This document shows positions 9,920-28,141 of a stretch of 39,083 bases of DNA, piece by piece. The position numbers were made by a program, and so were the translations under genes. Under the pieces are notes generated by a model. The model was not told where the DNA came from and did not search any database. It saw nothing but the letters and a program-made list of their open reading frames with translations. The number at the start of each line of letters is the position of its first letter. Positions within the stretch are counted from its first letter, which is position 1. The DNA is from a virus, in IMG/VR virus record IMGVR_UViG_3300042391_000334, positions 1 through 39,083 of that record; one strand, written 5' to 3'.

Positions 9920-12900
9920 TCAACCCATTTTTCTTCTTCTTTTCCTTCTTCTTTCTAAAGCTGCTGCACGTTTTAGTTTTATTCTTTCACGCATAGGCAA
10001 GTTACTGATAGAATCTTTTGTACGTTCCCTAGTTTCCTTTGCTTTAATTTTTCCCTCTTCTTTTCTAACTTCTTTAGCTTTAGCTCTTATTGCTTGATCA
10101 CCAGTGGATTCTTCAATCCCAATACTATATGGAGACCATCCTAATCCAACCATAACTCTTTGCCAAGCTTCATTTTGTGTATTCATTGCTTGAGAAGCAT
10201 TTTCTATTTTAGTAACTAAACGATCCATTGGTACATTTGTGAATGACTCAACTAGTTTACCGCTTACGCCATACATAGGGCCTAAATGAACTGTCCCATC
10301 TTGCATAACTCCCCAACCTCTTTCTGCTATAAGGTCTTTTTCAAATTTAGTTTGTTGCAATCCTGAATATAGCTTTCTAAGTTTAGATCCAATTGGAGGA
10401 GATATATTTGCACCTTCCAGCATTACTTTAGCATAATCAGCTTTAAACTTTTTATCTCTTTCTTCTAAATACTTTTTAGCCATGTTCTTTAGAGTAGCTA
10501 TAACGCCCCCGGTGAATCCGGTTCCTCTTAATATAGTATCAATAACTCCATCTGTAACATCAACTAATTTTTCATTTAGTTTCTTTTCTTTTTCAGGTTT
10601 TTCTTTGTCCTCATCATCATAGCCAAATGCAACAGCAAATAAACCTTGTTGCAGTACAGCAAACATTGTATTTTGAATTGCTAAATAATAAGCAATTTTA
10701 GCCACATTTGTTTTATCATTACCTCGTCTATTCTTAAGATCTAATATAGCTTTCTTAACAATACGAGATTGTTGCATTGCAGTATTCTGGAATGTTAATA
10801 ATAATCTACCAGCCGCGCTTGCTTGTTGTTTTGATATATCCCTTGGATCACCTGATTGCTGTGTTTCATCTGATACTTTAGTAAAATCACTCCACGCCGC
10901 AGTTTCAGCTTCTTGTTCAGTCATTCCTTCTTTTAAGTAGCTCTTTATTCTATTTCTATAAAACGGAGCGCCTCCTGAAGCAATAGCAAAACTATCTGCC
11001 ATTTGCGTTGGCGTATAACCTATCTTTAATAGATAAGATAATACTGCTCCAACTTTATTTTTACTACCAGCAGCAGCATTAGCAATCTCCGCAGCAGCAA
11101 CATCTTCTTTTAAACCACCACGTCTTTCTTTCATTTTATCTGAATTCCAAATACGTGCAAAGTCTTCCCAATATTGTTTTTGGTTTGCAAATGCAGCAGC
11201 GGCAGCTATAGGGTTGTTATCTCTTAAGTTTAAGAAATTGACCGCCCCAATTAATTGTAACGCAGCAGACCTTACGTTTAAGAACATAATAGCTCCAGTA
11301 GATCCGGTTACCCAATTAGCCCACATAGAAGTTTCTTTATCTTTGCCTTGACTTCTATTTTTACCAGTAGTCATTCTCCATAAAACATCTTCAATAGCTT
11401 CTCTTACGTTTGTACCGTATACCGCTTCAACTTTGTTAATATTAGGGCCAACTAATTTACCGTTTTCCCATTTACCAAACATTTCTTGAGCATTCTCAAT
11501 AAACTCAGCAAGAAATTTCTTTCTACCTTCTCCTTCAGTTAAATTATGTAAGTCAGATATAATTGTACTTGCATCCCAGAACTCAGTAGGAGTTACCCAT
11601 CCTTTACCTTGTCTACCAGCTATTATTAATCCTTGTTTAAATACAACCAATTCAGGATCGTTATTTACAAGTTCAGTTAATTTCTTTTGGTCTCTTTGCG
11701 ATATTCCTGGTATCTCAACACCTTCTTCGGTCCACATAGCCACACGTATTGCTTGATCATATGTAAAATCTCCATCAGGCGTTAATTTTTCTATTTTATT
11801 TTTAATATTAGGGAACTGATCTGTCAATGCTTTATAACCCCTCTTAATTGATTGTCTCGCGGCATCCATCAAATCATTACCATTTGCGTATGGTTTTAAT
11901 AAGGCATCTGCAAAGAATTTTTGTTGTTCTTCCCCGCGTTTGCCTTTACCTATAAATTTATATAATAGTAATTCAAAATCTGCGGCGGATGGCGGAACAT
12001 AAAAATCAAATTTGTTTTTATCTGCTCCTCTTCTTCTAGCAACAATATCTGAAAACACTTTATAATCTGCCATTCCAGTATTCTCTTCAATTATTTTATT
12101 GAATTCTGGAGATATAGCTTTACTAAATTTAATTCTTGCTTGTTGTATTTTTGATTTAACATCAAGAACATCTAATGCATCTTTAACCGCCGCTACATTT
12201 TGAATTGCATCATCAGCAAAATAGAAATCATTATACCCTTCTGCCGCTTTCGCAGTCATCCAATCTGCTTTTGCTTGAGCTGTACTATTACCTAATCCAG
12301 TTATATTTTCCAATGGTATATCTATACCTATTGAATCTAGGAATTCTTTAATAGGTACAGCTGCATTTGCAGGTCTTGCGGTAAGTATAAAGAAATTTTC
12401 ATTACCAAATTTAGCAATCATTTTCTTCATTTTTTCAACCATAGGGCCTGGTCTTCCATCAACAACTTTACTAAACTCAGAAAAATCAAATACAGCACCA
12501 TTATCAAGCATAGAGCTACCATCTTTTGCAAACTCTTCTGCATTTAATTTACCTTTTGTACCATCAGGCATTGTGTATAGCACACTACCGCTGGTGAACG
12601 CCGATGTATCATCAAAATCAAAAACCGAAATCCCTTTTGGAGCTCTAGAAAGATTATAAGATTTAAGAACGGCTTCTTGAGTATCTTTTATAATTTCTGA
12701 TGAAAAAGTATCTTTTACAACAGCATTATTAATTTGTTTTTTATTATATAAGTCATAAAAGGCGGGCACTTCTTTTCCATTAAATCCGGCATCTAAATAG
12801 CGGATTAAAGGATTATCACCAATGTTATAATAAAATGGCATGTTCGATTTGTAAATCTCATTAACTGATTTATCAAATGATTTAGGTAAAATTGTAACAT

Positions 12901-15900
12901 AAGAATTATTAATTAATTTTGCCATGAAGTCTGTAATAGACGTATCAGTTTTACCTGTTATTATACCTATAGCTATTCTAGATATATATGAAGAGGGTGG
13001 CACATGCTCGTATACCCATTCTTTTGGATTGCTACTATAGTTGCCCTTTTCAGCTACATATCTTAATTCAGATGCTAATTTTAATGGAGAATTCATAGAA
13101 CCTCCTAAAGACTTAAATATTAATCCTAATTGTGTATTATTTACTAATCCAGCTTCGTACATGCCCTTAAGAGCCGTAACCATTATTTCAAGATCTTTTT
13201 TAGCCTCAGTTGAAATTGCTTTTCTTTCTTCAATATTTACCTTATCGGTTTTTCCTGTTTTTATAAATTCAGTAATATCTTTTGCAGAAGTAGATTGCCC
13301 ATACGCACCTATGTTAGAATTAACTTTTGTTCCGTTATAAAGAATTGTTCTGCCTCTAACTTCACCAGCTCCAATTGTAAAACCTGGTTGTCCTTCTAAG
13401 AAAGCATTAAAAAACCCTTCTTGATTATTAAACAAACTTTGATCCTTACCGTAGCTAAAAGCTCTACTAAATAGTCTAGTAAATAGTTTATTTGCTTCCG
13501 CAGCTGACATTGTTTTAGAAAAATACTCAATTGCCGAAACGTGGAAATCTTTCATTTCTTTTTGCGCAGCTATTCTTCTATCTTCAGTTTTCCATTGCAA
13601 ACTAGAATTAGGTATATTTAAAGCTAATGCTAATGATTGATCTTTTGAAAGAGCGTTAAAAATTTTACGATTTGCAAAACTTAAAAAGTCCTCTCCTATA
13701 TTTATACCATAATTTTTAGGTGTTTTTGTTCCGCTTTTTGCTTCATAAAATAAATAAATTCCTTTTATAGCATTTATTATTTTATTTTTATATTTAGGTT
13801 CAAAATAACTATCTTTATAGGCAAAGTTAAATAAAAACTCTACTTCACCAGAATTTGGTACGGTACTTATAAAATTATAAAGTTTGTTTCCGTCTACACC
13901 AATTAATTCTGTTTTTACATTATTTGGTAATTCTACTAAAATTTTTTGAGCTTCTTGTACGGCTTTAGAAAATTTAACATTCCCTCTTTCCGCTTGTTTA
14001 GAAAAGGTTGCTGCAAAATTATTAGCCATTTCATAGCCTAATCTTTCTTGGTTAGTTGCTAAAGCATCAAATATTGGGCCTTCCTCAGCAAGATCGGCAT
14101 TGATAATATCAAATGCGCCTTCTTCTGACATGGCCTTAGATAAAGATTCTTTTCTACCTCTAATTGGATTACCATCAGGCCCTATAATTTGTGATAAAAA
14201 TACTTCGTCAGATATATTATTTGCTACGTTAGGTAATCTCCTAACTAACTCAGCCCCTGAGGTTCTACCGGCTTGATCAGTAGTTGTTTTTTCTCTATCA
14301 ATCTTTTTACCAACCCAATCAGGAAAATTAACCCATTTACCATCAATTTGCTTTTGTACCGCTTGGGGAATTCCACCCTGTCCATCTTTAGCCATTAGCC
14401 ATGTGGTAGTCATGTTTTCAAGAATATATCGTTTATTCCTTAATAATTCTTTTCTAAGAACTCCATCTTTTTTGCCCCCAAGCATTGTTTTTATATCAAT
14501 ATCTAATTGCTTACCAACCTCGTCTCTAATTTCAGAAATAAGAGGCGTAATTGTTCTGTTTAATGTAACAGGAGCATCAATCCTAGATTTTAAAGTTCTA
14601 ACAATAGTTATTATCTTGTTTGTGGCTGTTTTTAATACCTCTAATGGAAAAACTTTTGCTTCTAATGCATTCTTATACTTCGGCTTTTCTTTTGCTTCTA
14701 TAACAGTTTCTTCAGCCATTAAAGCTTTTTGATCTTCCACATCTTTCTTAATTCCGCCTTTAGTTGCTCCTTCAATACCTAATTCAGACGCCAGTGCATT
14801 TGCTCTAAGATTTAAACGAGAGCTAATAAATTTATCTAATGTTTGTTTAGAAGCATCAAATTCATTATTAATTAACAATGCAGCACTTTGAATTAAGGCG
14901 TCTTTATATTCGTCTCTGGTTACATTCCTTTTGGCATCGGCAGCAATAGGATCATATAACCTTCTTGTTATAGTTTCAACTGTACCGCCAAGTTCTTTAC
15001 CTATTATAGATTTTGAAAAATCATTAGTAACACTTCCTGATGGTGTATTTCTTAATCCTTCGGATGCTAATCTTTTTTGATCCCCGCCATATTTTGTATC
15101 TAATAAGTTTTGTAAGTTACCTTTACTTCTAGGTTCTTTTGCTATAGATTCTTTTTTTACGGGTTCTTTTTTAATAACTGAAGCTTCTTGAGTTACCTCA
15201 ACCTCTGGCATTGCTTTTGCAATTTTTAATTCTTCATTAAATATTTTAAGCTTATTTTCGTAGTCATCGTATTCTATATCATCATTATCGTATTGATCTT
15301 CAAGAGCATCTATTTTTGCTTGAACCTCAGCAACTTTAGCTTTAGAAAATGAAACGCCTCCATTATCTAAAACTACGTTTTTAAAATCTTTTGGATTAAC
15401 TTCTGCCGTAGCTATAGTAGATTCAGAGGCTGCTTGTATTTCTTTTAGTGTAAGAGTTCCCTCTTTTATTTTTTTACCTAATCCAACAACAAAGTTAAAC
15501 ATGTCCGTTTGCCCCTTAAAGTCAAAATCGTATTCTTCTATAAATTCTCTTTGAATCATTGATCCAAATAATCCTGAAAGAAATGAATTCTTTTTTTCGG
15601 CAAAAGATATATCACCGCTAGAAACAGATTCTAAAAATCTAGATATTACTTCTTGAGCATCAAACTTATCTCCAACCTTGTCTATATTCTTTGCTAATTT
15701 ATCGTATAGTTTTTTATCTAATTTTTTTGTTGTTACAAGTAATTGATTTGCTACAGGTATAAATGCTTCAGGATTGTTTTTAAATATTGCATTAAAAACA
15801 CCATGCCCAACTTCGTGACTACCTATTTGAGTTCTTTGGTTAGCAAGCATATTCTCTTTAACTACAACAGATAGGTTTCTAATGTTAAATCCATCTCCAC

Positions 15901-18900
15901 CTTTCTGTATTTCATTTATAATGTTTGCTTTTTCATCATCCGGTATATTTTCATTGCTTTGTATAAAAGGAATAACATCTGCTTTGGTATTAAAAGCTAA
16001 TAATTCCATACCTTCTACTTTGCTAGCATTGGCAATATTAATATCTATTTCTTGCCCTAAATATAATTCGTAGGCTTCTTTTTCAATTGTTTCTTTTGTT
16101 GTAACCCCTTTTTTACCTAAGTTAGAAGTTGCTTGATCAATTAAATCATTATATCTGGTAGGTTCATTTGCTTCTAATAAAATAAACTTAGATTTATCCT
16201 GCATTAAATTAGTAGGAGCTAATGCGTTTTCTTTTATATTGTTAAGTTTATTAAATTTATTTCTTAAATCTTTTATTAATATTTCTTTTAATCCGCTATC
16301 AATTGACTTATCGTTTACTATGTCTTTAGCTTCATTTTGTAATTTAGCTTTTTCATTCTCTATAGCAATAACTGTTTGGGCGGCTCCAGATCTTAAATTT
16401 TCATTTATTTTATTTTGCTGTTTTTCAATAGCAATGTTAATTTCTTGTTGCTTAGCGTCCATTAACCCCGCTATTGCCTTTTTTTCAGCTCGTTTTTTTG
16501 TTAATTCGAATTGTTTGCCTAAATCTTTTAAATCGGTGTGTAAAGTTCGTATTTCTTCTTTAGAATTATAATCTGAAAAAGCAGATAAATATAACCCGTG
16601 AGCATATGGCACACCAGACATTACAGTACCCATTCCAAACCCTGAAAACGCAGCGTGATCAACATTCTCCATAACGGGTCTACCGTCTATAATATTTTGG
16701 GTAATAGCAGTACCTGTCTCACCAGCAGATTCTAGAAATTGATCAAAAACAAACCCCGGACTTTTGCTTTTAAAATAAGCGGCTATTCCATCATCAACTA
16801 CATCTTCCCCACCAAACTTTGCAAAATGACTTGTTGCTCTTTTTAATATTGGTATAGTAGTTACCCTTTCAAACAATGCTTCTGATGCTCCAAACCCTAC
16901 CGACTTTAGCCATATTTCAGTATTTGAATAATCAGCAGTGCCTTTTGCTATTTCAGTTTGCATTTGGGCCATTTTACTTCCTGCTCCAAAAGTTCCTATC
17001 ATAGCTGTACTAGCTCCTTCTGCGCTTACCCCAGCAGCACCCGCTGCTCCACCGGTAGCCATCATAGCCATAAGTATAGGTATTTGTTGCGAAATTTCTT
17101 GCGCAGCAAATTTACCAAAATTTCCGCCGTCTTTAAATGCATCTTTAAAAGAAACATCTCTAACGTATGATTGTCTTATATCATCAACGGCTTTAGTATA
17201 GCCAACCGCCCACTCGTCTAATTTACCGGATGTTGTTTGAGCATCCTCTCCATATATTAATTTAGATACTTCGTCTCCGGCATAAGCAAATGGCGTTACA
17301 GCCGCTAATACTTTAGCAGATAAGTAAGATGCCCCTGTTAATATATCAGCAGTGCCCAATCCTATATTAGCCAAGTATTTTTCGCCTAGATCATAATTTT
17401 TAGCTGCTGCTGTAGTAAATATATCTGAATCGTTTAATTTTTCTAAATTATTAGTTTGAGCTTTAAATGCTTGAGTTGCATATAAATTATTAGCTTTATA
17501 TGCTTCATTTAGTTTTAGGTAGGCATCGTAGAAACCTTTGCTTACAGTATTTCCATTTTTTAAAGTTAATAATTCAGTATTATTAACATCCATGTCAATG
17601 CCGACACTTTTGAACTTATTAGCAATAACCACAGCTTCTTCCTCTGTTTTGTATTCTCCATTAAGTATAGAAACGGCATCTTTGCCAAGACCTTGCATGG
17701 TTAACGCAGCGTTTTCAGCAACTTTTAGTTGTGTGGTTGCTTTATTCTGCTCTTTAACCGCTGCTTCATTAGCTAATAAAGAGCCAACGTATAATTTTGA
17801 TTGTAATGTTTTATCATTCTCTATAATACCTTGAGCAACAGAAGCTTTTCTATTATTAAAAGCATCTGTTTTTAATAAAGTTCTAGCTAGTCTATCAGCC
17901 TCAATATTTAATTTTTCTTTAGATATATTAGGGTTATCTAATAAAATTTTCTTTTTTGCTGAATTTAATTCGTTTTCATAAGGTCTAACAATATAAGTTC
18001 CGCCACCAGCAGTACCCATTGTCATTCCCCCCGCAAGATTTGTTCCTGCATAACTTTCCTTTCTTGGAGTAAATAGATTTGGAGCATCAAACTCCGCATT
18101 AACTTCAGCTCTAAATTCTGGAGTTATAGCGTTATTTAATTCTTTATTATATATTAATTTTGATTCTTCACGTAAAGCTTTATTTTTTGCTAAGTTAACA
18201 TTTTTTAAATTTTTATTAAAAAAGTCTTTAAGAATGTCTACATTTTTATTTGCTAATTGAGGCCTTTTTTCAGCGCTAGCATTCATTACTCCAATATCAA
18301 ATTGCAATATATCCGATTCTTTTCTAGCTCCTGTAAATGGATCCACATATATAGCTTTAACAGCATCGAATCTATTTGTTATATCTCCGCTTGTTGCGTT
18401 TGTTTCTTCAAAAGTTAATCCGGGTATACCGGCATAAAGCTTTTCAAGCGTTTGCTTACCTTCTTCTTCTTCTACTCCAAAAAAAGTTTCAGTAGCTTTT
18501 TTAGTTTTTAAAGTGCTTGTTAGATAATCGCCTATTTTATTTTGGTCTTTCACGTAAAGTGATCCATAATCTTTATCCTTTGGGCCAACAACAGATTTTT
18601 TGCTTTTACCAGTCTTATCCCACCTGTCAATGCGCTCTACTATTAAGTCCGTTTTAGGCTTAGTAAGCTTTTGTAATCCAAGCGGATCAAATGTTTTAGT
18701 TTTACCAAACGGGTTAACGGGTGATACCGAAGAAGGTTCCTCCGATTTGAATGCCGTATTTTTTGCTGTTGCAACTGCATCCTTTTTTACAACAGGTTTT
18801 GGCTTTCCCGGCACTTTGTCTTTAACTATTTCAATACCAAATTTATTAAGATATGATTCTAAATCCATACCTTTCTCTTGCGCTTTAGCAATTACTTCTT

Positions 18901-18940
18901 CTTCTGAAAATTCTACTCCGTTATAAATGTATATAGGCAT
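9920..18940 (-). CDS. 3006-aa polyvalent internal virion protein (zincin + HAD domains)
   Basis: This giant protein is the last gene of the virion operon. The N-terminus is MPIYIYNGVEFSEEEVIAKA, a short fold often seen at the front of phage polyvalent proteins. Residues about 520-700 hold long Gly/Ala-rich hydrophobic stretches (around 630: ILMAMMATGGAAGAAG), suited to membrane insertion during ejection. HEVGH at 1042-1046 is a zinc-metalloprotease signature. Residues about 2100-2260 carry all four HAD phosphatase motifs: DFDDT (2108-2112), ILTAR (near 2185), a Lys in AQAKADW, and FADD (near 2241). The C-terminal 700 residues are helical, like the large polyvalent-protein-associated regions, and end very basic (ERRRKRRRKMG). 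Three FSKA motifs (from 1198, 1657 and 2272) may mark borders. By position it replaces T7 gp16: packed in the capsid and ejected into the cell. A role as a cytoplasmic polyprotein is possible. Confidence 0.85.
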   Translation of the reverse strand: MPIYIYNGVEFSEEEVIAKAQEKGMDLESYLNKFGIEIVKDKVPGKPKPVVKKDAVATAKNTAFKSEEPSSVSPVNPFGKTKTFDPLGLQKLTKPKTDLIVERIDRWDKTGKSKKSVVGPKDKDYGSLYVKDQNKIGDYLTSTLKTKKATETFFGVEEEEGKQTLEKLYAGIPGLTFEETNATSGDITNRFDAVKAIYVDPFTGARKESDILQFDIGVMNASAEKRPQLANKNVDILKDFFNKNLKNVNLAKNKALREESKLIYNKELNNAITPEFRAEVNAEFDAPNLFTPRKESYAGTNLAGGMTMGTAGGGTYIVRPYENELNSAKKKILLDNPNISKEKLNIEADRLARTLLKTDAFNNRKASVAQGIIENDKTLQSKLYVGSLLANEAAVKEQNKATTQLKVAENAALTMQGLGKDAVSILNGEYKTEEEAVVIANKFKSVGIDMDVNNTELLTLKNGNTVSKGFYDAYLKLNEAYKANNLYATQAFKAQTNNLEKLNDSDIFTTAAAKNYDLGEKYLANIGLGTADILTGASYLSAKVLAAVTPFAYAGDEVSKLIYGEDAQTTSGKLDEWAVGYTKAVDDIRQSYVRDVSFKDAFKDGGNFGKFAAQEISQQIPILMAMMATGGAAGAAGVSAEGASTAMIGTFGAGSKMAQMQTEIAKGTADYSNTEIWLKSVGFGASEALFERVTTIPILKRATSHFAKFGGEDVVDDGIAAYFKSKSPGFVFDQFLESAGETGTAITQNIIDGRPVMENVDHAAFSGFGMGTVMSGVPYAHGLYLSAFSDYNSKEEIRTLHTDLKDLGKQFELTKKRAEKKAIAGLMDAKQQEINIAIEKQQNKINENLRSGAAQTVIAIENEKAKLQNEAKDIVNDKSIDSGLKEILIKDLRNKFNKLNNIKENALAPTNLMQDKSKFILLEANEPTRYNDLIDQATSNLGKKGVTTKETIEKEAYELYLGQEIDINIANASKVEGMELLAFNTKADVIPFIQSNENIPDDEKANIINEIQKGGDGFNIRNLSVVVKENMLANQRTQIGSHEVGHGVFNAIFKNNPEAFIPVANQLLVTTKKLDKKLYDKLAKNIDKVGDKFDAQEVISRFLESVSSGDISFAEKKNSFLSGLFGSMIQREFIEEYDFDFKGQTDMFNFVVGLGKKIKEGTLTLKEIQAASESTIATAEVNPKDFKNVVLDNGGVSFSKAKVAEVQAKIDALEDQYDNDDIEYDDYENKLKIFNEELKIAKAMPEVEVTQEASVIKKEPVKKESIAKEPRSKGNLQNLLDTKYGGDQKRLASEGLRNTPSGSVTNDFSKSIIGKELGGTVETITRRLYDPIAADAKRNVTRDEYKDALIQSAALLINNEFDASKQTLDKFISSRLNLRANALASELGIEGATKGGIKKDVEDQKALMAEETVIEAKEKPKYKNALEAKVFPLEVLKTATNKIITIVRTLKSRIDAPVTLNRTITPLISEIRDEVGKQLDIDIKTMLGGKKDGVLRKELLRNKRYILENMTTTWLMAKDGQGGIPQAVQKQIDGKWVNFPDWVGKKIDREKTTTDQAGRTSGAELVRRLPNVANNISDEVFLSQIIGPDGNPIRGRKESLSKAMSEEGAFDIINADLAEEGPIFDALATNQERLGYEMANNFAATFSKQAERGNVKFSKAVQEAQKILVELPNNVKTELIGVDGNKLYNFISTVPNSGEVEFLFNFAYKDSYFEPKYKNKIINAIKGIYLFYEAKSGTKTPKNYGINIGEDFLSFANRKIFNALSKDQSLALALNIPNSSLQWKTEDRRIAAQKEMKDFHVSAIEYFSKTMSAAEANKLFTRLFSRAFSYGKDQSLFNNQEGFFNAFLEGQPGFTIGAGEVRGRTILYNGTKVNSNIGAYGQSTSAKDITEFIKTGKTDKVNIEERKAISTEAKKDLEIMVTALKGMYEAGLVNNTQLGLIFKSLGGSMNSPLKLASELRYVAEKGNYSSNPKEWVYEHVPPSSYISRIAIGIITGKTDTSITDFMAKLINNSYVTILPKSFDKSVNEIYKSNMPFYYNIGDNPLIRYLDAGFNGKEVPAFYDLYNKKQINNAVVKDTFSSEIIKDTQEAVLKSYNLSRAPKGISVFDFDDTSAFTSGSVLYTMPDGTKGKLNAEEFAKDGSSMLDNGAVFDFSEFSKVVDGRPGPMVEKMKKMIAKFGNENFFILTARPANAAVPIKEFLDSIGIDIPLENITGLGNSTAQAKADWMTAKAAEGYNDFYFADDAIQNVAAVKDALDVLDVKSKIQQARIKFSKAISPEFNKIIEENTGMADYKVFSDIVARRRGADKNKFDFYVPPSAADFELLLYKFIGKGKRGEEQQKFFADALLKPYANGNDLMDAARQSIKRGYKALTDQFPNIKNKIEKLTPDGDFTYDQAIRVAMWTEEGVEIPGISQRDQKKLTELVNNDPELVVFKQGLIIAGRQGKGWVTPTEFWDASTIISDLHNLTEGEGRKKFLAEFIENAQEMFGKWENGKLVGPNINKVEAVYGTNVREAIEDVLWRMTTGKNRSQGKDKETSMWANWVTGSTGAIMFLNVRSAALQLIGAVNFLNLRDNNPIAAAAAFANQKQYWEDFARIWNSDKMKERRGGLKEDVAAAEIANAAAGSKNKVGAVLSYLLKIGYTPTQMADSFAIASGGAPFYRNRIKSYLKEGMTEQEAETAAWSDFTKVSDETQQSGDPRDISKQQASAAGRLLLTFQNTAMQQSRIVKKAILDLKNRRGNDKTNVAKIAYYLAIQNTMFAVLQQGLFAVAFGYDDEDKEKPEKEKKLNEKLVDVTDGVIDTILRGTGFTGGVIATLKNMAKKYLEERDKKFKADYAKVMLEGANISPPIGSKLRKLYSGLQQTKFEKDLIAERGWGVMQDGTVHLGPMYGVSGKLVESFTNVPMDRLVTKIENASQAMNTQNEAWQRVMVGLGWSPYSIGIEESTGDQAIRAKAKEVRKEEGKIKAKETRERTKDSISNLPMRERIKLKRAAALERRRKRRRKMG

Positions 18941-18959: not shown

Positions 18960-20450
18960 TTAAGGTAATGTAACTGTTTTGGTTTTGCTTTCTAAATATT
19001 TTTTAAGAGTTTTTCTAGAAAATGCTCGTGGATTCCTATCACTAACTATTTGCCCCTTAGAGTTTACATAAAATTTTTCATCAATACCTTTCCCTCCTTT
19101 AGGACCAGGGAAATTTACTGTAAATTCCGAATCTGGGTCAGCTACAAGAGCATTATAATTTTGTATTGCTGCACTTACGTCGGAATCTGAAAGTACTCTA
19201 GCTGTTCCGCTTTTTGCCCCTCCAGCTTTTCCTGAGCCTTTTCCTGAGCCTTTTGCAGGTTCTTCAGCTTTTTCTATAAATGAAACTTGATCTTTATCAG
19301 GTTTTAATAATGGTTGTGTTGGGGCTATCTGAGTATTAATATAATATTCTTTATAATCCTTAATAAATTTTTTCTTGCCTGCCTCATCCAATGGCTTGTT
19401 AGGGTCAAAGCAATAATCAATACCAGCCCAACGCCCTTGCGGCTTGGCTATTATATCATTATAAAAATCAATTGCAGATGATTGATTTGCATCCAATAAT
19501 CCATTTGCTTGAGCTGTTAACGTAGTTTCAAAGTTTGGATCTTCTTTAATTCTAGCAATATCTACTTTTTGGGTATAAGTTGTTATGTCAGTGCCATCAG
19601 GCGTTTTTGTTCTATTTACTATAACTTCAGGTCTGCCATTGGCGTCTTTGGCTAAAAAATCGGGGTTAATACGGCCGGTTGGCATTGGATCACCTTTTTC
19701 CCCTGGCTTAACAGGCATAGTTTCAAATATACTTGAGTTTGTGGATTTTAATTTATCAAATTCTGCTATTTGATTTGGTATTACTCTGATAATTCCATTA
19801 CCTTGAGAAATCTTTTTTAATTGATCTGCATCAAATTCTTGCAAAACGGTTCCGTCTATATCAGATACTTTCCACATTAGTTTTGTTGGATCACCATCCT
19901 TAAAATACACCTCTTTTCTTCCCTCAACTTTTTGTAATAGTACATTCATTGCCTTAAGGAATGTAGGATTATTGCTTGAAGCAATACCGCCTTGCACCGC
20001 AACACCTTTTGCTAATTTTTCTGTGAGCGTTTCGCTAGCCCCGGACATCGTAGCAATAGACTGCACTACATTATCAACAGACCCTTGAATCTGTCCTAAT
20101 CGTTTCATTGCCCCTTGTTTGTCTGGCAATGTTCCATTTAACATACCAGAACGAATCTGCACCGCCTCATTAATTAATGGTTCATATGTTTTGGCCCAAT
20201 CAACAGAAGGGTCGGAAGCCGTAGACTTAGCTAAATCCGTATATAATGAGAACTCATATTCCTGAGCTTTCATTTCGTTGGCTTTTATTTGTTTAGCATT
20301 GGCTTCTAATTGCTCTCTTATTTCTTTTTGTCTAGCGCTATAGGCATCAGCAACCTTTGCAAAAGTTCCAGATATAGTATCCTGTAACCTTTGATAATGT
20401 TGCGAAGTTTGTGTATCTATGTATGTTTCTGGATTTGAGTAAGCTCCCAT
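18960..20450 (-). CDS. Internal virion/core protein (T7 gp15-position), 496 aa
   Basis: This 496-residue protein has no firm family. Residues 1-75 are helical and coiled-coil-like (YQRLQDTISGTFAKVADAYSARQKEI, then KQIKANEMKAQEYEFSLYTDLAK). A mixed middle part follows. A Gly/Ser/Lys linker from a 12-base DNA repeat (KGSGKGSGKAGG near 410) leads to a small C-terminal domain with a basic end. There is no signal peptide or enzyme motif. It lies between the gp14-like 246-aa gene and the 3006-aa gene, the same order as the T7 internal core genes 14-15-16. It is therefore probably a cargo protein loaded into the head and ejected with DNA. Transcription is continuous, with only 19 bases to the next gene. 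Confidence 0.72.
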   Translation of the reverse strand: MGAYSNPETYIDTQTSQHYQRLQDTISGTFAKVADAYSARQKEIREQLEANAKQIKANEMKAQEYEFSLYTDLAKSTASDPSVDWAKTYEPLINEAVQIRSGMLNGTLPDKQGAMKRLGQIQGSVDNVVQSIATMSGASETLTEKLAKGVAVQGGIASSNNPTFLKAMNVLLQKVEGRKEVYFKDGDPTKLMWKVSDIDGTVLQEFDADQLKKISQGNGIIRVIPNQIAEFDKLKSTNSSIFETMPVKPGEKGDPMPTGRINPDFLAKDANGRPEVIVNRTKTPDGTDITTYTQKVDIARIKEDPNFETTLTAQANGLLDANQSSAIDFYNDIIAKPQGRWAGIDYCFDPNKPLDEAGKKKFIKDYKEYYINTQIAPTQPLLKPDKDQVSFIEKAEEPAKGSGKGSGKAGGAKSGTARVLSDSDVSAAIQNYNALVADPDSEFTVNFPGPKGGKGIDEKFYVNSKGQIVSDRNPRAFSRKTLKKYLESKTKTVTLP

Positions 20451-20470: not shown

Positions 20471-21282
20471 TTATAGTGATGGCGTGTAGCTGCCCCATTC
20501 TTCCCCAACTTCTACTGGTGGACGCCCAATTCCCTGGGCTGTTACTTTCCCGGCCCAAGCGCACTCATGTAAGATCCTAATGCACCCGTAACACCACCTA
20601 TCATTCCGGTTAATGCGCCTGTCTTATCCGCCCGAGCCTGAGCTTCTTGAGCTTCTGCTCCACTTAATTGAGCAGCAACTCTATCTATTTTACCTTGTTC
20701 TCTACTTTCTCTTGCCCCAAACATGAACTGTTTACCAGCAGCTTCAGCGCCTTGAACTCTTTGAGCCTCACTAATCTGAACCCCTTGAATTCTTTGCTCT
20801 TCTGCCATTTTCATTCTTTGCATATCTGCCTCTCCTTGAGCTTTTAATTTTTCATTAGCTGCTTCTTGTTGTTCAATGTTAGCCGAAATACCTTGCTTAC
20901 TTTTTAATGCAGCTTGAGCTAATGCAGTAGCACCCCCAGCGCTTGATCCAGTTTCCTTTAAAGTATCTAAGGTGTTAGCTAAAGCAATATCAGTCTCTTG
21001 AGCTTGAAATTTTGATGCTTGAGTTGCAACTCCTAAATTAGCATAAGGATTACTTATCATACCAGACAAATTTTTAGCAAGTCCGCTGACGTCTTTAGTT
21101 GTTTCATAAGGATTGATAATTGCTTGTCTGCTATTTTCTAAGCTATTTAATTGACCTTCTAATTGTCTCCTTTTTTCGGCAGCGGCTGCGGCGGCACGAT
21201 CGGCACTCCCCATCCCCATTATTCCTCCAATTATACTGGATCCTGCGCTTATAAGCATTCCAGCCGCTAATGGTATTGGCAT
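20471..21282 (-). CDS. Internal virion protein (T7 gp14-like), 246 aa, with probable -1 frameshift extension to 270 aa
   Basis: The zero-frame product is 246 residues and stops at 20542. The N-terminus is a Gly/Ala-rich hydrophobic segment (IPLAAGMLISAGSSIIGGIMGMG), a membrane-active type expected of gp14-like ejection proteins. A long Ala/Glu/Gln-rich coiled coil follows (AAAAAAEKRRQLEGQLNSLE, then KLKAQGEADMQRMKMAEEQR and similar), and the C-terminal part is Gly-rich (TGMIGGVTGALGSYMSALGPGK). The last two sense codons sit in a slippery heptamer. A -1 shift adds 24 residues, starting VTAQGIGRPP and ending GSYTPSL. That extension fills the otherwise unusual 91-base gap and leaves 20 bases before the next gene, much like its neighbours. 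By position it is the first internal core protein. Both forms may be in virions. A sequencing error of one base is the main alternative explanation. Confidence 0.75.
20524..20551 (-). other. Predicted -1 ribosomal frameshift site with downstream hairpin
   Basis: On the - strand the last codons of the 246-aa gene read CCG GGA AAG TAA. With the preceding G this gives the heptamer G GGA AAG (20551-20545), which fits X XXY YYZ. The zero-frame stop follows at once. After a 5-base spacer comes GCCCA (20539-20535), a 6-base loop and TGGGC (20528-20524). A -1 slip enters an open frame of 24 codons ending with TAA at 20473-20471. The geometry (heptamer, 5-9 base spacer, stem) is that of known -1 recoding signals. 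Confidence 0.65.
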
Positions 21283-21319: not shown

Positions 21320-21336
21320 ATCCTAATTAATAGGAT
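21320..21336 (-). other. Short inverted repeat at the end of the 517-aa gene
   Basis: ATCCTA (21320-21325) and TAGGAT (21331-21336) form a 6-bp stem with a 5-base loop, overlapping the stop codon of the 517-aa gene. The transcript after it is A-rich rather than U-rich, so it does not look like an efficient terminator. It may stabilise the RNA end or be chance. Confidence 0.3.
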
Positions 21337-22880
21337 GACATTACATAATTTGATGATACAGAATATAATTCTGCGGCTTGAGGCGTTGAAGGATTTACAA
21401 ACGTCATTTTGACTGTAGAGTAAAATCCTTTTATACCATTCATAGAATTACCATAAATAACTTCCCCATAAGTTGCTGGCGTATTATTTATAATAGTTCC
21501 AAAATATTTATTTTCTTTTCTTTTAAAATTATTTGTAAACAATTGGTTTTCTAAAGCAGCTAAGCTACTTGCATTAACTGCCTTATCGATTGGTACTCCA
21601 ATATCAGAATTAGAGTATAGTTCTGTTAAAGCCCATCCTGTAGACCCTTCATAATTCAATGTATTGAAGTTCTTAGAAGCTGAAACCTCGGGATTAAATA
21701 TTAGGGTAACATTTGCATCGTACTGTACTCCATAGAAATTACAATAGTTTATAGATGTTGCAATAGGATCAGCATAATGTCTCCATATATTACCATTCTT
21801 AAAAGTATAGAAGTTATTTCTTAAACTGCCTGATAAACTAGGTTTAAATGAGAATCTACTTGTCCATCCTGTGCAATCTTCATCAAACGCTAATGTTTGA
21901 AATTGCTCTGTGTTAGCAGGCTGTAATGATACAACATATTGTTTATTGTACATATCCCATCCGCCAATTATTTTACCTGTACTGCCAATTAAAGATAAAT
22001 TATCTCTAAAGAAATCTATCATGCCATATGCTGATATTTCAGTTATACCGTCTTGAGATAATCTTAGAACAACGTTCTGGTTCTTGTCTACAAAGTATTT
22101 TCTGTATCCATAAACAGCAAAACTTTCAGGGTTAGTACTTATGCCATAGTTACCAGCATATTGCTGAACCTGACCAATTACTTGAGCTCCGGAAGTAGTC
22201 ATTGGTTGTCCTTCGGCTGAATAAATTGCATCTTTGTCGATCAATGCTCTACTTACTTTTGATTCTTGGAATATAATTAAGTTTGTATCTTCGGCATATA
22301 GTTTTTGTATTGATCCAACCGATGGATCCACGCTTCTTGTTATATCATCAGCTACTGAGAATTGGTTCGTATTATTAACCCCTGTTCTAGAGTTAAATAC
22401 CCCAGAATAAATCAGCGAATTAAATCTATGTTGTTGCGAAGTAGAATCTTCAACTAAGTACGCTTTAACCCCAAAATCAACTGAGGTATTATTATAACCG
22501 CCTCGTATTCTTGCTTCCTCTATATACCAATCAGACTCGTCAGTAGACGCATAAGCTGCTGGAATATGTGAAAAATCTGTAATAACCCCAAATGTAATAG
22601 CTGTTAAATCAGGTATATCTGTAGGAACAAGGTCTGATAACACTATTGTATATGTTCCATCAATATATAATATTGTATTTGTATATGTTGTGCCTGAAAT
22701 ACTATAACTTAAGGTTTGACCAACACCTAAGGATTGAGTATTTTCATTTAATGTCATTATATTGGTGTCCTCAGCAACGTCGCCATCGACAGTATAAGTG
22801 CCCCCTGTAACATTTACAATAGTATCCATTTTTTTTAACCAAAATGAATTAAAATATTTTAGTTCTAATGTTGCTGCCAT
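21327..22880 (-). CDS. Muzzle/tail-nozzle-like protein, C-terminal half (517 aa)
   Basis: This 517-residue virion protein opens with LELKYFNSFWLKKM and a beta-rich insert. From about residue 118 (SDWYIEEARIRGGYNN) onwards it resembles the distal half of the long nozzle/muzzle proteins of short-tailed Bacteroidota phages: RFNSLIYSGVF, NQFSVADDITRSVDPSVGSI, LIIFQESKVSRALIDKDAIY, GISTNPESFAVYGYRKYFVD and VVLRLSQDGITEISAYGMID. These repeats suggest a beta-propeller-like body. The gene upstream has only the proximal half, so the two may assemble as one tail-tip structure, in the position of T7 gp12. It is separated by 44 bases on each side from its neighbours. The family assignment rests on remembered motif similarity and is moderately sure. 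Confidence 0.68.
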   Translation of the reverse strand: MAATLELKYFNSFWLKKMDTIVNVTGGTYTVDGDVAEDTNIMTLNENTQSLGVGQTLSYSISGTTYTNTILYIDGTYTIVLSDLVPTDIPDLTAITFGVITDFSHIPAAYASTDESDWYIEEARIRGGYNNTSVDFGVKAYLVEDSTSQQHRFNSLIYSGVFNSRTGVNNTNQFSVADDITRSVDPSVGSIQKLYAEDTNLIIFQESKVSRALIDKDAIYSAEGQPMTTSGAQVIGQVQQYAGNYGISTNPESFAVYGYRKYFVDKNQNVVLRLSQDGITEISAYGMIDFFRDNLSLIGSTGKIIGGWDMYNKQYVVSLQPANTEQFQTLAFDEDCTGWTSRFSFKPSLSGSLRNNFYTFKNGNIWRHYADPIATSINYCNFYGVQYDANVTLIFNPEVSASKNFNTLNYEGSTGWALTELYSNSDIGVPIDKAVNASSLAALENQLFTNNFKRKENKYFGTIINNTPATYGEVIYGNSMNGIKGFYSTVKMTFVNPSTPQAAELYSVSSNYVMSSY

Positions 22881-22924
22881 ATTTAATAATTACTTGTTTT
22901 TTTCTATTTTTAATTGGTGGATGC

Positions 22925-25900
22925 TTACGCTATAGTTACAGATTGGGTTAGGTTTCTACCAAAGTTATACAACGGAGCTGGTGTTGGAGAAAATTCTACT
23001 GTCCATGCTGTTTGAACTGTATTTACAGGTGCTCCTGCTGGAAGAACATTTACAACTCTGCCATCAATATCAAACTTAGCTGAAAATATTGGAGAATTAG
23101 TTATCGGCGGGTCGGAAAAATAATAACCTCCAAAAGGTATAACCTCATTATAATTTCTATTCTTGTTTTGAAATAAATAAAATTTATCCGGCACAGGAGG
23201 CACCCACGGTGTTGAAAAAGCAGAATCCAAATAAAACTGTTTTACATGAAGACCATTATTTGTTGTTGCATATACCGTTCCAGTAGGCGACGGATACACA
23301 TTAAAAGCAATTGGTGTTCCAGTCGGTAATGTAGTTCCAATAGGGGCAGATAAAATAACTTGCGTTCCAATAACCCCAGTTACTTGACTTCCAAGGCCAC
23401 CGAGTGTAGAAGTTGCATATAGCCCTGCTACGATTTGAAAATCGGCTACATTTAAATTTAATATGTTAGTACCAACAAAAGCTTCTGATGCTAATGTTCC
23501 AGATGTTAGAAATGGAAATCCCGTTGTAGCATCTTGTGTATCATATGGCACAGCATTAGGATCCCCGACTATTGGAGGAGGAGCATACTCTGTAAGCTGA
23601 ACATTATATTCATAAGCCGGCAATGGCGATACAATTACTGGATTAGTATAATTAATAGGAGGTACGTAACTGTAATTAGCATCTTTAACACTAACCCTTG
23701 TTGAAAAATGTACCGCACAATCAACAAAAGGAGGTGGATCATCCGGGTTATCATTTGTAGTATACTCGTGCCACAATACTAAACAGTATTCTCCAGGAGT
23801 AGATGTTATAAAAGATAATTGTTTTTCCACAAGTGTACCAGAAGCTGCAATACTACCGGTTCTTACACCAAAAGCGTTAAGCGAACCTGGAGGCATTCCT
23901 GTTGTTCTAAAAATGCCGTCTGTCCATTCATCATTATCAGAGCCTACATTATTATCATCAAATATGGAAGTCCATACGTTATCAGGCGGTCCAAAATCTT
24001 GGCGATAATATAATATAAATTTTACTTTGCTTTGTCTAAACTGATTTAAACTGCTTTCCCCAGTTGTAGTTATAGTCCATTCTAATTCTCCTTGCGTAAG
24101 CCCAAAAATTTCAGCTGGATCAGAAAAAAGATCGGCTCCATTTGCTTCTTGAACATTGACATATTTTTGGTATGCTCCAGTTCCAGAATATGGAACATCA
24201 ACACCAAGATCATTTTTGTAGTATGTATTTGTTAAATCCGGTAAGTTTGGATTAGTGTTAGTTATTGAATCTAATTGGTAATTACCTCTACCAATATATA
24301 CTGCTCCGTATCCTTGCCCAGGTACTGGGTTACAAGTTGTACTACCCGTATAATATTGGTAAATCCAATTATTAGGGGTATCATAAGATTGTAAATAATC
24401 ATTAACCGGCTGTGGACCAACAGTTATATTGACGAATATTGTATCAGATTTAGAATTATATGGATTAGGTCCGCTTACTCCACCTAATGTAGCATTGAAA
24501 GCATCCCATACTCTTATTTGTAATACATAAGTGCCTAATAAAACATTAGGATCACGTAATCTTAAATCTCCGGTGACAGGGTTTATCTCAAAATAATTAG
24601 CAGCATTGCCGCCGATTATTTCCCAATATAAATCAATTTGATCAGTGACTGGCGGTGGAGGAACTGGTATTAATGGGTCTGTTCCAGGATTAACTCTTGC
24701 TCCGTTTTTAGCATCCATATTAACAATGAAGTCCGCATCCTCCTGTATTACTCTATCATATGCACTTGCAGGTTGATTAAACGACGGCGCAATATTGCCC
24801 AGCCTTCCGGTATAATTGATATAAGCAAATACCCCAGGTTGCCATTCTACTTTAATTTCAAAGTTAAAAGTGCTGTCTCCTAAAGAGGCACCATAATCAA
24901 AAACAAAATAGTCTTTTATTATAAATCTATAAAATCCAGATCCTATAAATGTTTCTTCTATATCAAACTTATTGGTAACTACGCTTCCAGAAACTGTTGT
25001 TACAAGTGAAAATGTAGGTACACTATATAATGCTAATGGAAATCCAGTATTATTTAAAATTTCAAAATCAGAGGTTATATATTTAGAGTCCGCATCTCCA
25101 GTATTTGGATCAGTCCCTTTAGGATCTTGATCTTCAAAGAAAATAAATTCCTCTGGGTTTATAGAGGCGGGGCCATTATAGCCGCTTAGTACATCGTAGT
25201 TTAAATCAGAAATATAGCCTGTTGAAGCAGTTTCCCAAAATAAAGCTAAAGAAGAGAAATCAGGAACGGTTTCATATACACTTAAGAATGGAACCATTAA
25301 TTTACTTAAAACTCCAATTCTTTTTGCTGTAGAAATTCTACCTATTAATGGTTTTGTTTGTAACTGATAAAAATTAATACCAGCTCTTCCGCTAACATTA
25401 TCTACTGTATTATCCAAAAAGTCAAAGTCTGCCGCTGTAGCGATAGATGATACCACATCAGCTTTTCTAGAAGGGAAATACTGAATGCTTTCCGCCCTAG
25501 TAATAATAATGTCAAGAGGCCCCCAACTAGTCCTAGTCCAGTTTCCTGGTGTAAAAGTTATTATACCTTTAGTGGGGTCAATAGGATCGACTATATTTGA
25601 CGTGACTACGGTATTTGCATACCATGTATATGGAGGAATAGCATCACGACAGTCTATCCCATCTCCAGGGTTCGCATTTTCAAGTTCTCCGCCGGGTCCT
25701 AAAAGGTATGATATTGTAGTGGTGTATTTATTATCAACAAGCGCCGCTTCGGCTGTAAAGGTATTTGTTAAAGCAGAATTTTCTACTCTACCGAATAATT
25801 GTACGCTACTACGATATTGTTTTTGATCAGGACCAACCTCTGTTAAATCCCTTGGTATTTTATTTATATTATCATTAATTAATACAATGTGACTTGTCTT

Positions 25901-28141
25901 GCCCTCCTCTCCTACAGGAAAGCTTGTGGTATTTATACCATTCTCTAAAATAGGATCAAAGGTTATAGGGGTATATGCTACTTGTGATCCTGAGGTTTGT
26001 CCATACGGATAACCGTCTAGTATTCCAGGTAAGTAAGCATTATAATAATCTTGTTGCTGTTGTTTAACAACTACTTTATAGGAATACCAACCTATTTCAT
26101 TTATATTGTAAGCAAACTTTACGTCAACAACCCCAGGTATTGGAGTAATTGGTAAATATAAATTATTAACTTGTCCATTAGTTATTATTCTATAATCTCC
26201 TGAAGGTGTTGAAGGGAAAGCAGAAGGATCGTAAATATATCTAAGAGGAAAAGTAGACGTATCCAGCCACCCAACTCTTCTTATTGTAACATAATCTGTA
26301 AATTCTCCTCTCATAGATTCTCCTATTACAGGTATTACGGATGTAGGTGGCCCCGCGGGAGGAGTCCCTGGGTCTATAGTGAAGTCGTAAATATTGCCCG
26401 TTATTGAACCGGCTATTATTGAGAACCCACTTATTGTTGTTGGTTCTGCATATAAACCAGGTGTGCCTAATTGTATATTACGAGTAGAAGCTATTGGATC
26501 ATTAACTAATACCAATAAAGCATTTCCAAACCAACATTTTATACTTAGTCCTTCTGATTCATATGGTGCATATACTGTTGAGCCACCATATTTTATATTA
26601 TCCTGTACAGTATTCTCAAGATCCACTGTTGATAACAATACAGATGATTGTCTACCAAACTTATCTGATAATACAAAACCTACTTGATAATTACGATTTT
26701 GTTTTAAAGTATGGTTAGGATATTCTATAAAGTTTGTGAATATATTGGACTTTGGTTGTACTGCAGTATTGTAATTTATATTTGCGGGTGGAGTATACAT
26801 ATTGTAAAAATTACCATATATAACTCTATTACCTGCTATCTCCTGACTTAAAGCTCTGGTAGGTACAATGTCATAAACCCTAGTTGTTTGGCTTTCATTT
26901 AATGTTTTATATGGCTTTTGTGATTGATATGGGTAATTATAAACATTTGTATTAGGAATAGCGTTGCTTATCGTTGTCCAAGGAATGGTGTCTAAAACAT
27001 TTACAACTAATGAGTCAGATTCTTTGTATAGAATATCAACATCGGTTATTTTATAAGTAGAGTTTACATTTGATCCCGTATCTGGTAGTGGAACTAATAA
27101 TTCAATATTATTAATATTGTTCTCCATCCATTGGACAACTGTACTCCTATAGGCGGCTGTTTCGTCTCCATTAAGGAAGTATCCTTTCTGTCTAGGTACA
27201 TACGCTATTTGAGTAAAAGGAGCCATTAAAGAGTACTCATTATCATCAAATTTGAATCTATAACTAAAACGTACATATTTGTCTTCTAAAAACGACGGAT
27301 CGCCAGGCCATGTTGGTTCATCAGCCTTATTGGTCATCGTAGAAATTAAAAATGTTAACTCAAGTCCATTAGATATTGTAGGTGATCCTAAGTAGGTGGT
27401 GATCTCATTGGTTAAAGGATCAACACTCATGACATAAGTATAATCACAGGATGGTATACCAGTCGCAACAATAGTCATTCCCTCAACAATACCTACTACC
27501 GAATCTAATTCAAAAGTAGAGCTATCGATTACGTTGACTACCGTGGCTGTTGCTTTTCTTATTAATGAAATAGGTTCTACCGGTGCGTATTTAGCTACTG
27601 AAATTTGCACCTCAGTAGTATAATAAGCTGAGTTCCCTATCGCTTTATTATAATTTATCTTTCTTGGTTGATTTCTATTATCAGTCCAAAACAATAAACC
27701 CTCTATTAAGTTTAATCCTAATATTAAATTTGTTTTTGAAAAGTTTAAGAAAGTACCTTCTACTAATGTAGAATAGGTTAATGAGTTTAAATCGTATACT
27801 GTTATTTTCATCACCCATCCCGCTAATGGGGTAGGCTGCGTATTTAACGGACTAGTACATAAAATTATTTGACTTGGATTTTGATCGGTATAATTGGTTA
27901 AGAATTGGTATATTCTATTGTTTTGATTGTCCATAAACATACCAATACATTCCAAATCTGGAATAGTCTCAACAGGTATTTCAACATTACCATATACGTT
28001 TTGTAGTACTCCAATATTGTTTGTTTCAGATTTACCTACTTCTATGTTTAAGGCATCTCTATATTCACTATTAGGTATAAGTCTATCGTCTAAATCTTTA
28101 TTCATTTTAGACGATAGAAAACTATTTTTTACTTCAGCCAT
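22925..28141 (-). CDS. Giant muzzle/tail-tip protein with cadherin-like and fibre-like domains (1738 aa)
   Basis: The N-terminus (FLSSKMNKDLDDRLIPNSEY followed by RDALNIEVGKSETNN) is characteristic of the tail nozzle/stabilisation proteins of marine and crAss-like short-tailed phages. About residues 200-1000 are beta-rich repeats, including RISTAKRIGVLSKLMVPFLS and LFWETASTGYISDLN. Around 1150-1230 there is a cadherin/Ig-like domain (NYFEINPVTGDLRLRDPN, then TYVLQIRVWDAFN). The last 500 residues contain further beta-sandwich-like segments and an adhesin-like C-terminus. No enzyme motif was recognised. It likely forms the tail tip and may carry receptor-binding domains. In crAss-like phages one protein has both this N-terminal part and the part here found in the 517-aa gene. 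It begins 5 bases after the stop of the 413-aa connector gene. Confidence 0.72.
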   Translation of the reverse strand: MAEVKNSFLSSKMNKDLDDRLIPNSEYRDALNIEVGKSETNNIGVLQNVYGNVEIPVETIPDLECIGMFMDNQNNRIYQFLTNYTDQNPSQIILCTSPLNTQPTPLAGWVMKITVYDLNSLTYSTLVEGTFLNFSKTNLILGLNLIEGLLFWTDNRNQPRKINYNKAIGNSAYYTTEVQISVAKYAPVEPISLIRKATATVVNVIDSSTFELDSVVGIVEGMTIVATGIPSCDYTYVMSVDPLTNEITTYLGSPTISNGLELTFLISTMTNKADEPTWPGDPSFLEDKYVRFSYRFKFDDNEYSLMAPFTQIAYVPRQKGYFLNGDETAAYRSTVVQWMENNINNIELLVPLPDTGSNVNSTYKITDVDILYKESDSLVVNVLDTIPWTTISNAIPNTNVYNYPYQSQKPYKTLNESQTTRVYDIVPTRALSQEIAGNRVIYGNFYNMYTPPANINYNTAVQPKSNIFTNFIEYPNHTLKQNRNYQVGFVLSDKFGRQSSVLLSTVDLENTVQDNIKYGGSTVYAPYESEGLSIKCWFGNALLVLVNDPIASTRNIQLGTPGLYAEPTTISGFSIIAGSITGNIYDFTIDPGTPPAGPPTSVIPVIGESMRGEFTDYVTIRRVGWLDTSTFPLRYIYDPSAFPSTPSGDYRIITNGQVNNLYLPITPIPGVVDVKFAYNINEIGWYSYKVVVKQQQQDYYNAYLPGILDGYPYGQTSGSQVAYTPITFDPILENGINTTSFPVGEEGKTSHIVLINDNINKIPRDLTEVGPDQKQYRSSVQLFGRVENSALTNTFTAEAALVDNKYTTTISYLLGPGGELENANPGDGIDCRDAIPPYTWYANTVVTSNIVDPIDPTKGIITFTPGNWTRTSWGPLDIIITRAESIQYFPSRKADVVSSIATAADFDFLDNTVDNVSGRAGINFYQLQTKPLIGRISTAKRIGVLSKLMVPFLSVYETVPDFSSLALFWETASTGYISDLNYDVLSGYNGPASINPEEFIFFEDQDPKGTDPNTGDADSKYITSDFEILNNTGFPLALYSVPTFSLVTTVSGSVVTNKFDIEETFIGSGFYRFIIKDYFVFDYGASLGDSTFNFEIKVEWQPGVFAYINYTGRLGNIAPSFNQPASAYDRVIQEDADFIVNMDAKNGARVNPGTDPLIPVPPPPVTDQIDLYWEIIGGNAANYFEINPVTGDLRLRDPNVLLGTYVLQIRVWDAFNATLGGVSGPNPYNSKSDTIFVNITVGPQPVNDYLQSYDTPNNWIYQYYTGSTTCNPVPGQGYGAVYIGRGNYQLDSITNTNPNLPDLTNTYYKNDLGVDVPYSGTGAYQKYVNVQEANGADLFSDPAEIFGLTQGELEWTITTTGESSLNQFRQSKVKFILYYRQDFGPPDNVWTSIFDDNNVGSDNDEWTDGIFRTTGMPPGSLNAFGVRTGSIAASGTLVEKQLSFITSTPGEYCLVLWHEYTTNDNPDDPPPFVDCAVHFSTRVSVKDANYSYVPPINYTNPVIVSPLPAYEYNVQLTEYAPPPIVGDPNAVPYDTQDATTGFPFLTSGTLASEAFVGTNILNLNVADFQIVAGLYATSTLGGLGSQVTGVIGTQVILSAPIGTTLPTGTPIAFNVYPSPTGTVYATTNNGLHVKQFYLDSAFSTPWVPPVPDKFYLFQNKNRNYNEVIPFGGYYFSDPPITNSPIFSAKFDIDGRVVNVLPAGAPVNTVQTAWTVEFSPTPAPLYNFGRNLTQSVTIA

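Follow-up and report, generated by a model that had tools for sequence, protein, structure and literature searches.

C-terminal extensions made by ribosomal frameshifting are known from several phage structural and assembly proteins, including lambda G/GT, the gene 10B products of T7 and T3, and proteins of Listeria phages. In lambda, the assembly chaperones gpG and gpGT arise through a -1 frameshift on G_GGA_AAG. This heptamer is reported to be highly shift-prone in E. coli, and halovirus HCTV-5 uses it for g-t expression (PMC5009743). The T7 gene 10 frameshift needs a distant stimulator, and Listeria tsh shifts on CCC_UGA with the stop codon in the A site (PMC5009743). Our search of the open-access literature found no report of frameshifting in crass-like phages, flavobacterial podoviruses or ejection proteins, in agreement with a preliminary description of the present locus, which knew of none in this protein class.

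The window, a viral record of 39,083 nucleotides (39 kb), comes from an uncultured phage akin to phages of marine flavobacteria. Its terminase is 65% identical to the best record and 46% identical to the next, and the terminase, the P22-like portal and the PF25729 protein place it near podoviruses of Flavobacterium, Cellulophaga, Tenacibaculum and Maribacter, including Pervagoviridae and Pachyviridae. The gene order is muzzle gene, 246-aa gene, 496-aa gene and 3006-aa gene (Table 1), which resembles the crAss001 order of muzzle, C1, C2 and RNA-polymerase-associated protein; the roles of those crAss001 proteins have been described (PMC10172136). The muzzle-like protein is split in the window (21327-28141, minus strand) into a 1738-aa ORF, which matches the start of PHROG 14478, and the 517-aa ORF (MAATLELKYFNSFWL), which matches a later part. 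It is a single ORF in elemo and phi38:1, and the 517-aa ORF is separate in many relatives too. The 3006-aa protein (9920-18940, minus strand) lies at the place of the giant crassvirus RNA-polymerase-associated protein and matched nothing in Pfam or PHROGs.

The 246-aa protein is small, rich in Ala and Gln and mostly helical, with a Gly-rich hydrophobic N-terminus. Neither Pfam nor PHROGs holds a family for it, a profile search of the PDB returned nothing credible, and nucleotide and tblastn searches of the gene against 50,697 phage records gave no match, so relatives were sought in IMG/VR and by profile. The family profile aligned with phi38:1 gp99, phi13:2 gp124, elemo gp20, Gundel gp72 and Panino 72 at 97.7% probability and an E value of 1.6e-12 (hhalign). 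These counterparts, from phages of Cellulophaga, Flavobacterium, Tenacibaculum and Maribacter, are annotated as virion structural proteins, and the family, like that of phi38:1 gp99, has the muzzle gene on one side and a gene of about 450-550 aa on the other. The profile match to crAss001 gp45 is weak (E 1.5e-4, probability 51.5%; shuffles, 0.2-0.5) and covers about residues 145-190 of gp45, a stretch of about 45 residues in its predicted transmembrane segment. An AlphaFold model of the homologue L003 (28 rows) was poor, all helix with a mean pLDDT of 54.

We also considered homology to T7 gp14 and rejected it, as its E value of 0.21 equals that of a shuffled sequence. The preliminary description had spoken of a gp14-like internal virion protein. 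Gene order and the profile match speak for a virion protein, likely an internal one; the likeness to gp14 is one of analogy, as there is no match to the T7 protein. From the gene order and the hydrophobic N-terminus we infer that the protein would be packaged inside the virion and ejected into the envelope, and by analogy it is probably stored and ejected as crassvirus cargo protein C1 is.

Table 1. Features of the frameshift locus and its neighbours in the window
Feature	Position	Strand	Evidence or remark
517-aa gene upstream, with the crass muzzle C-terminal domain (PF25729)	21327..22880	-	Domain match
0-frame gene, 246 aa, tail-less virion/cargo-like protein	20542..21282	-	236 unique homologues; profile match to Pervagoviridae/Pachyviridae virion structural proteins
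Slippery heptamer G_GGA_AAG	20545..20551	-	Sequence; GGGAAAN or AAAAAAG in 0/673 control ORF ends
0-frame stop TAA, abutting the heptamer	20542..20544	-	Stop 0-2 codons past the slippery site in slip-type homologues
GC-rich hairpin GCCCAGGGAAUUGGGC	20524..20539	-	Follows the heptamer after 5 nt; most slip-type homologues have a hairpin here, non-slip ones have none
24-codon extension in the -1 frame, with its TAA, VTAQGIGRPPVEVGEEWGSYTPSL	20471..20545	-	L003 has a homologous tail in frame
Predicted shift product, 270 aa (246 + 24)	20471..21282	-	Signal, -1 frame and L003 tail
496-aa gene that follows, in the place of crassvirus cargo protein C2 / phi38:1 gp100	18960..20450	-	The 20-nt gap is counted to its start

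The 3' end of the 246-aa gene reads GGG CCG GGA AAG TAA. The spacer TAACA (20544-20540, 5 nt) leads to a hairpin of five Watson-Crick pairs, as the preliminary description had it, plus a closing G.U pair and a GGAA loop, and the 40 nt past the heptamer fold at -10.7 kcal/mol. A ribosome that shifts by -1 would enter the new frame at GTA (20545) and terminate at TAA (20473-20471), 20 nt from the start of the next gene (20450), and one junction peptide expected of the shift product is ALGPGKVTAQGIGR. The coordinates given in the preliminary description are all correct to the base, and the 24 codons and the residual 20-base gap reported with them are both present in the window sequence. The openness of the -1 frame in the window alone is unremarkable, because the +1 frame is likewise open, for 29 codons.

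The comparison with relatives strongly supports the frameshift. Seven viral scans and one genome scan, over metagenomic assemblies, yielded 236 unique homologues; among the cultured records searched, none carries a slip-type gene. Conservation is good along the protein body and gives way to a hypervariable C-terminus with three states: tail-less, tailed in frame, and slip-type. Tail-less homologues stop about 50 aa past a conserved E.R motif. Among those tailed in frame, 18 end in a domain akin to the S74 endosialidase chaperone (L018, L024, L073, L093 and about 14 others; SDRRLKxNI...QGVMSDE...DVEFKKI), for which the Peptidase_S74 score is 27.1 bits in L024 (cut-off 22) and just below the cut-off in several others. 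For a protein presumed to be internal to the virion, an intramolecular chaperone domain is odd; it might hint at a role at the tail tip.

The slip-type state is found in 26 of the 236 homologues, in which the next gene is 59-123 nt away and a slippery site lies 0-2 codons ahead of the stop, with the 0-frame stop directly after the heptamer in most members. The slippery sequence is mostly GGGAAAG/C/T/A or A_AAA_AAG, the exceptions being T_TTG_GGG in L180 and a G run in L432. In all 26 the shifted -1 frame ends 9-31 nt short of the next start, and the 0 frame of non-slip homologues usually ends 0-30 nt before it. Among homologues with a recognisable next gene, gaps of at least 50 nt comprised 26 with the -1 signal, three with a +1 arrangement and four with neither, and the signal occurred in 0/164 with gaps below 50 nt; these counts are descriptive only, because the slip-type set was chosen, by eye and script, from the same loci. 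The four signal-free cases are L092, L112 and L357, which have a different downstream arrangement, and L433. In the last, the sequence downstream of the gene reads GCG TGA GGG GGA AAG TAG, with an in-frame TGA just ahead of a perfect GGGAAAG TAG cassette; this may be a decayed site, or the TGA may be read as an amino acid. Measured from the E.R motif, slip-type products run 47-60 aa unshifted and 67-90 aa shifted, lengths that overlap those of the tail-less and tailed non-slip homologues.

The controls were 673 further ORFs, each 100 aa or longer, from the same loci. GGGAAAN or AAAAAAG occurred within the last five codons of none of them, and AAAAAAC in 8. Among 29 loci, an open stretch ending no more than 40 nt from the next start was seen in the -1 frame at 26, in the 0 frame at 11 and in the +1 frame at 8, the last count including the three +1 shift cases. 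Over the 40 nt past the heptamer, 27 slip-type homologues had a mean folding energy of -8.0 kcal/mol and 178 non-slip ones a mean of -0.9 kcal/mol, with 85% and 0%, respectively, at -5 kcal/mol or below (p 4e-17), a difference that is partly due to GC content, since the mean z against dinucleotide shuffles is just -1.05. The first paired base lies at a median of 4 nt past the heptamer. Stems differ in sequence among the phages and keep their place and form; they are weak in some members (L313, L450). Inspection of the 26 sites by eye revealed no consistent upstream stimulator of the Shine-Dalgarno type.

The extensions themselves bear the marks of coding sequence. Tails are homologous within L016/L108, L157/L378, L107/L240, L078/L405, L156/L209 and L013/L019/L120, with shuffle Z values from about 7 up to 23. 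Eight pairs pooled give a pN/pS of 0.33, and in frame-blind nucleotide alignments differences fall at the three codon positions 50, 38 and 82 times (p 1e-4), so that, by sequence comparison, the extension peptides are under purifying selection. Several tails also recur in another frame. The window tail, ...PPVEVGEEWGSYTPSL, is found as ...PPTEVGETWGSYTPTL in L003, which is 83% identical to the window and has the tail fused in frame (...EVGETWGSYTPTL), with neither heptamer nor hairpin; the L313 tail is likewise in frame in L312, which also lacks the signal. In L163 and L165, GCC TTT GGG TAA C precedes the tail VSTVSTLTPQGYSF, which occupies the +1 frame and is homologous to the tail of L450, itself reached by -1 behind GGGAAAT TAA. 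That homologous peptides are reached by different routes is the best single argument for their translation.

A serious alternative accepts the frameshift and assigns it another role, namely to carry a fraction of ribosomes across the 91-nt gap and so tune translation of the 496-aa protein by coupling, with the tail secondary. The uniform spacing favors it, since the shifted frame always ends, and the 0 frame of non-slip relatives usually ends, close to the next start. However, short gaps are expected from compact phage gene packing alone, and the tails are conserved, under purifying selection and recurrent in frame. We therefore regard coupling as the main role as unlikely, even though it survives better than the explanations that follow.

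An ordinary in-frame gene could also have been split in the window, whether by a single-base error of assembly or sequencing or by a recent neutral indel, and L003, with the same tail in frame, is the kind of relative this would predict. The preliminary description had named a fused homologue as a sign of sequencing error; such a homologue does exist, but because it has neither heptamer nor hairpin we take it for a form of the gene that is simply read in frame, and it is no evidence of an error in the window. The other refuting outcome named there was a broken or unconserved -1 frame; the frame is open in 26/26 slip-type homologues. Moreover, the composite signal stands at the same place in the window and in some 25 diverged contigs, and its repeated creation by error is not to be expected, making this explanation very improbable. 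L313 alone could be such a case: just before the tail it has A9 where L312 has A10, so that L312 is fused in frame and L313 needs -1, with almost no hairpin. Homopolymer error or transcriptional slippage are both possible accounts of this pair.

Transcriptional rather than ribosomal slippage would suit the A runs at some sites, with A6 in L013, L019, L192 and L267 and A9 in L313. Most sites, including that of the window, are G3A3, which is too short for polymerase slippage, and the positioned hairpin and tandem codon register suit a ribosomal slip, leaving this account about as improbable as an error. Least probable of all is that the spacer is non-coding, with an untranslated -1 frame and a hairpin that serves in termination or mRNA processing: the hairpin does lie just past a stop codon, as terminators do, but it lacks a following T-run, sits inside a structural operon, and is overlapped by a -1 frame that is open in 26/26 and codon-constrained, with a spacer length that tracks the heptamer.

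Two further candidates were rejected. In-frame readthrough of the stop is contradicted by the 0 frame, which in 18/29 loci ends over 40 nt short of the next start. A separate small spacer gene would have no start codon, as the -1 frame is entered within AAG TAA and the few Met codons of the tails are internal.

Taken together, these observations make it very probable that a programmed -1 ribosomal frameshift signal yields tail-less and tailed forms of this virion protein. The frameshift proposed in the preliminary description is thus upheld by the homologue alignment suggested there: heptamer, stop and -1 extension are kept in about 26 diverged homologues, many with homologous -1 peptides under coding constraint. 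Reasoning from sequence, we infer that the slip takes place in vivo and that both forms would be present in the virion. In the mechanism we propose, most ribosomes would read GGA AAG and stop at the adjoining TAA, giving the 246-aa protein. The hairpin 5 nt downstream would pause some of them and allow a back-slip of one base on G_GGA_AAG, the tRNAs would re-pair to GGG AAA, and 24 more codons would complete the 270-aa protein with its C-terminal tail. The adjoining stop would set a precise tail-less end and perhaps offer a second chance to slip, with the stop waiting in the A site. The host ribosomes are probably those of Flavobacteriia, and the shift rate of GGGAAAG has been measured in other ribosomes.

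Why the phage would make both forms is a separate matter. It probably requires a fixed mix of tail-less and tailed subunits, and we favor a role in which the minor tailed form would dock, or time release, in the virion. Related phages encode the tail-less form alone, the tailed form alone, or an apparent +1 shift version. Within the small clade of the window, L005 and L006, its closest relatives, are tail-less, L001, L002 and L003 are tailed in frame, and the window has the slip. Since L005 and L006 do without a tail and L003 carries it in frame, the family can do without the slip, which may bring little benefit.

On a FastTree tree of 221 representatives, slip-type members are scattered and at least 22 changes between slip and no slip are needed, a count to be read with the poor resolution of the tree. 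Ig-like extensions of other phages show the same indifference to -1, +1 or in-frame attachment, which has been ascribed to module movement (PMC5009743). It is conceivable, though we hold it only tentatively, that phages swap C-terminal tails at the 3' end of this gene, in frame, by -1 or by +1, and that selection repeatedly installs a slip there to set the mix of tail-less and tailed ejection protein needed for delivery of DNA or cargo. If so, this would be the first frameshift-built ejection apparatus.

Further loci record other changes at this gene end. In L158, L163 and L165, the +1 frame past GCC TTT GGG TAA C has 21 to about 40 open codons, and a +1 frameshift probably replaces the -1 shift in the same gene. 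L448 has the remnant of an S74-type end (KIDVEFKRI) out of frame past the stop of a truncated gene, and L428 has a similar, more degraded stretch, which suggests loss of the S74-type domain.

The phages of this family probably infect Bacteroidetes. The MAGs that contain its contigs L378-L388 bear the labels Aliivibrio, Woesearchaeota and Ilumatobacteraceae in addition to Bacteroidetes, and the non-Bacteroidetes labels are probably mis-binning. With this family, the short list of frameshift-expressed phage genes would gain a widespread phage family and a virion gene class. Ordinary gene callers would miss the tails, so in many phage genomes from metagenomes these proteins are likely incompletely annotated. 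With tail-less, in-frame tailed and slip-type versions among close relatives (L001-L006, L312/L313), the family offers a natural experiment on why virions would want both forms and on the origin and decay of frameshift signals.

The window site combines a heptamer in the 0-frame register, a downstream structure within the usual distance of about 5-9 nt and a conserved, coding-constrained -1 ORF, the hallmarks of described -1 sites. Like lambda gpG/gpGT, it lies in a phage structural operon, would give a minority product with a C-terminal extension, and is conserved across a family; unlike lambda G/GT, the protein is a podovirus-type virion or cargo-like protein, the stop abuts the heptamer, and the tail is 15-45 aa. 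T7/T3 gene 10A/10B offers a -1 slip near the end of a virion-protein gene that gives short and extended forms, although that gene encodes the major capsid protein. As in cps and tsh of Listeria phages PSA, A118 and A500, extensions are reached via -1 in some phages and via +1 in others, and GGG_UAA_C of the +1 members resembles prfB and the CCC_UGA of PSA tsh in having an A-site stop. The Listeria proteins, however, are capsid and tail-shaft proteins, some with Ig-like domains, whereas here a helical protein of Bacteroidetes phages carries short, mutually different tails. The gene directly follows the muzzle gene, as that of crAss001 cargo protein C1 (gp45) does, but gp45 has 842 aa against 246 aa here, and no frameshift has been described for it. 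The counterparts in Cellulophaga phi38:1 (gp99) and elemo (gp20) match in position and size, yet have no slip signal, a next gene at most 6 nt away or overlapping, and any tail in frame. The mechanism is classical, and the gene class appears to be new for frameshifting.
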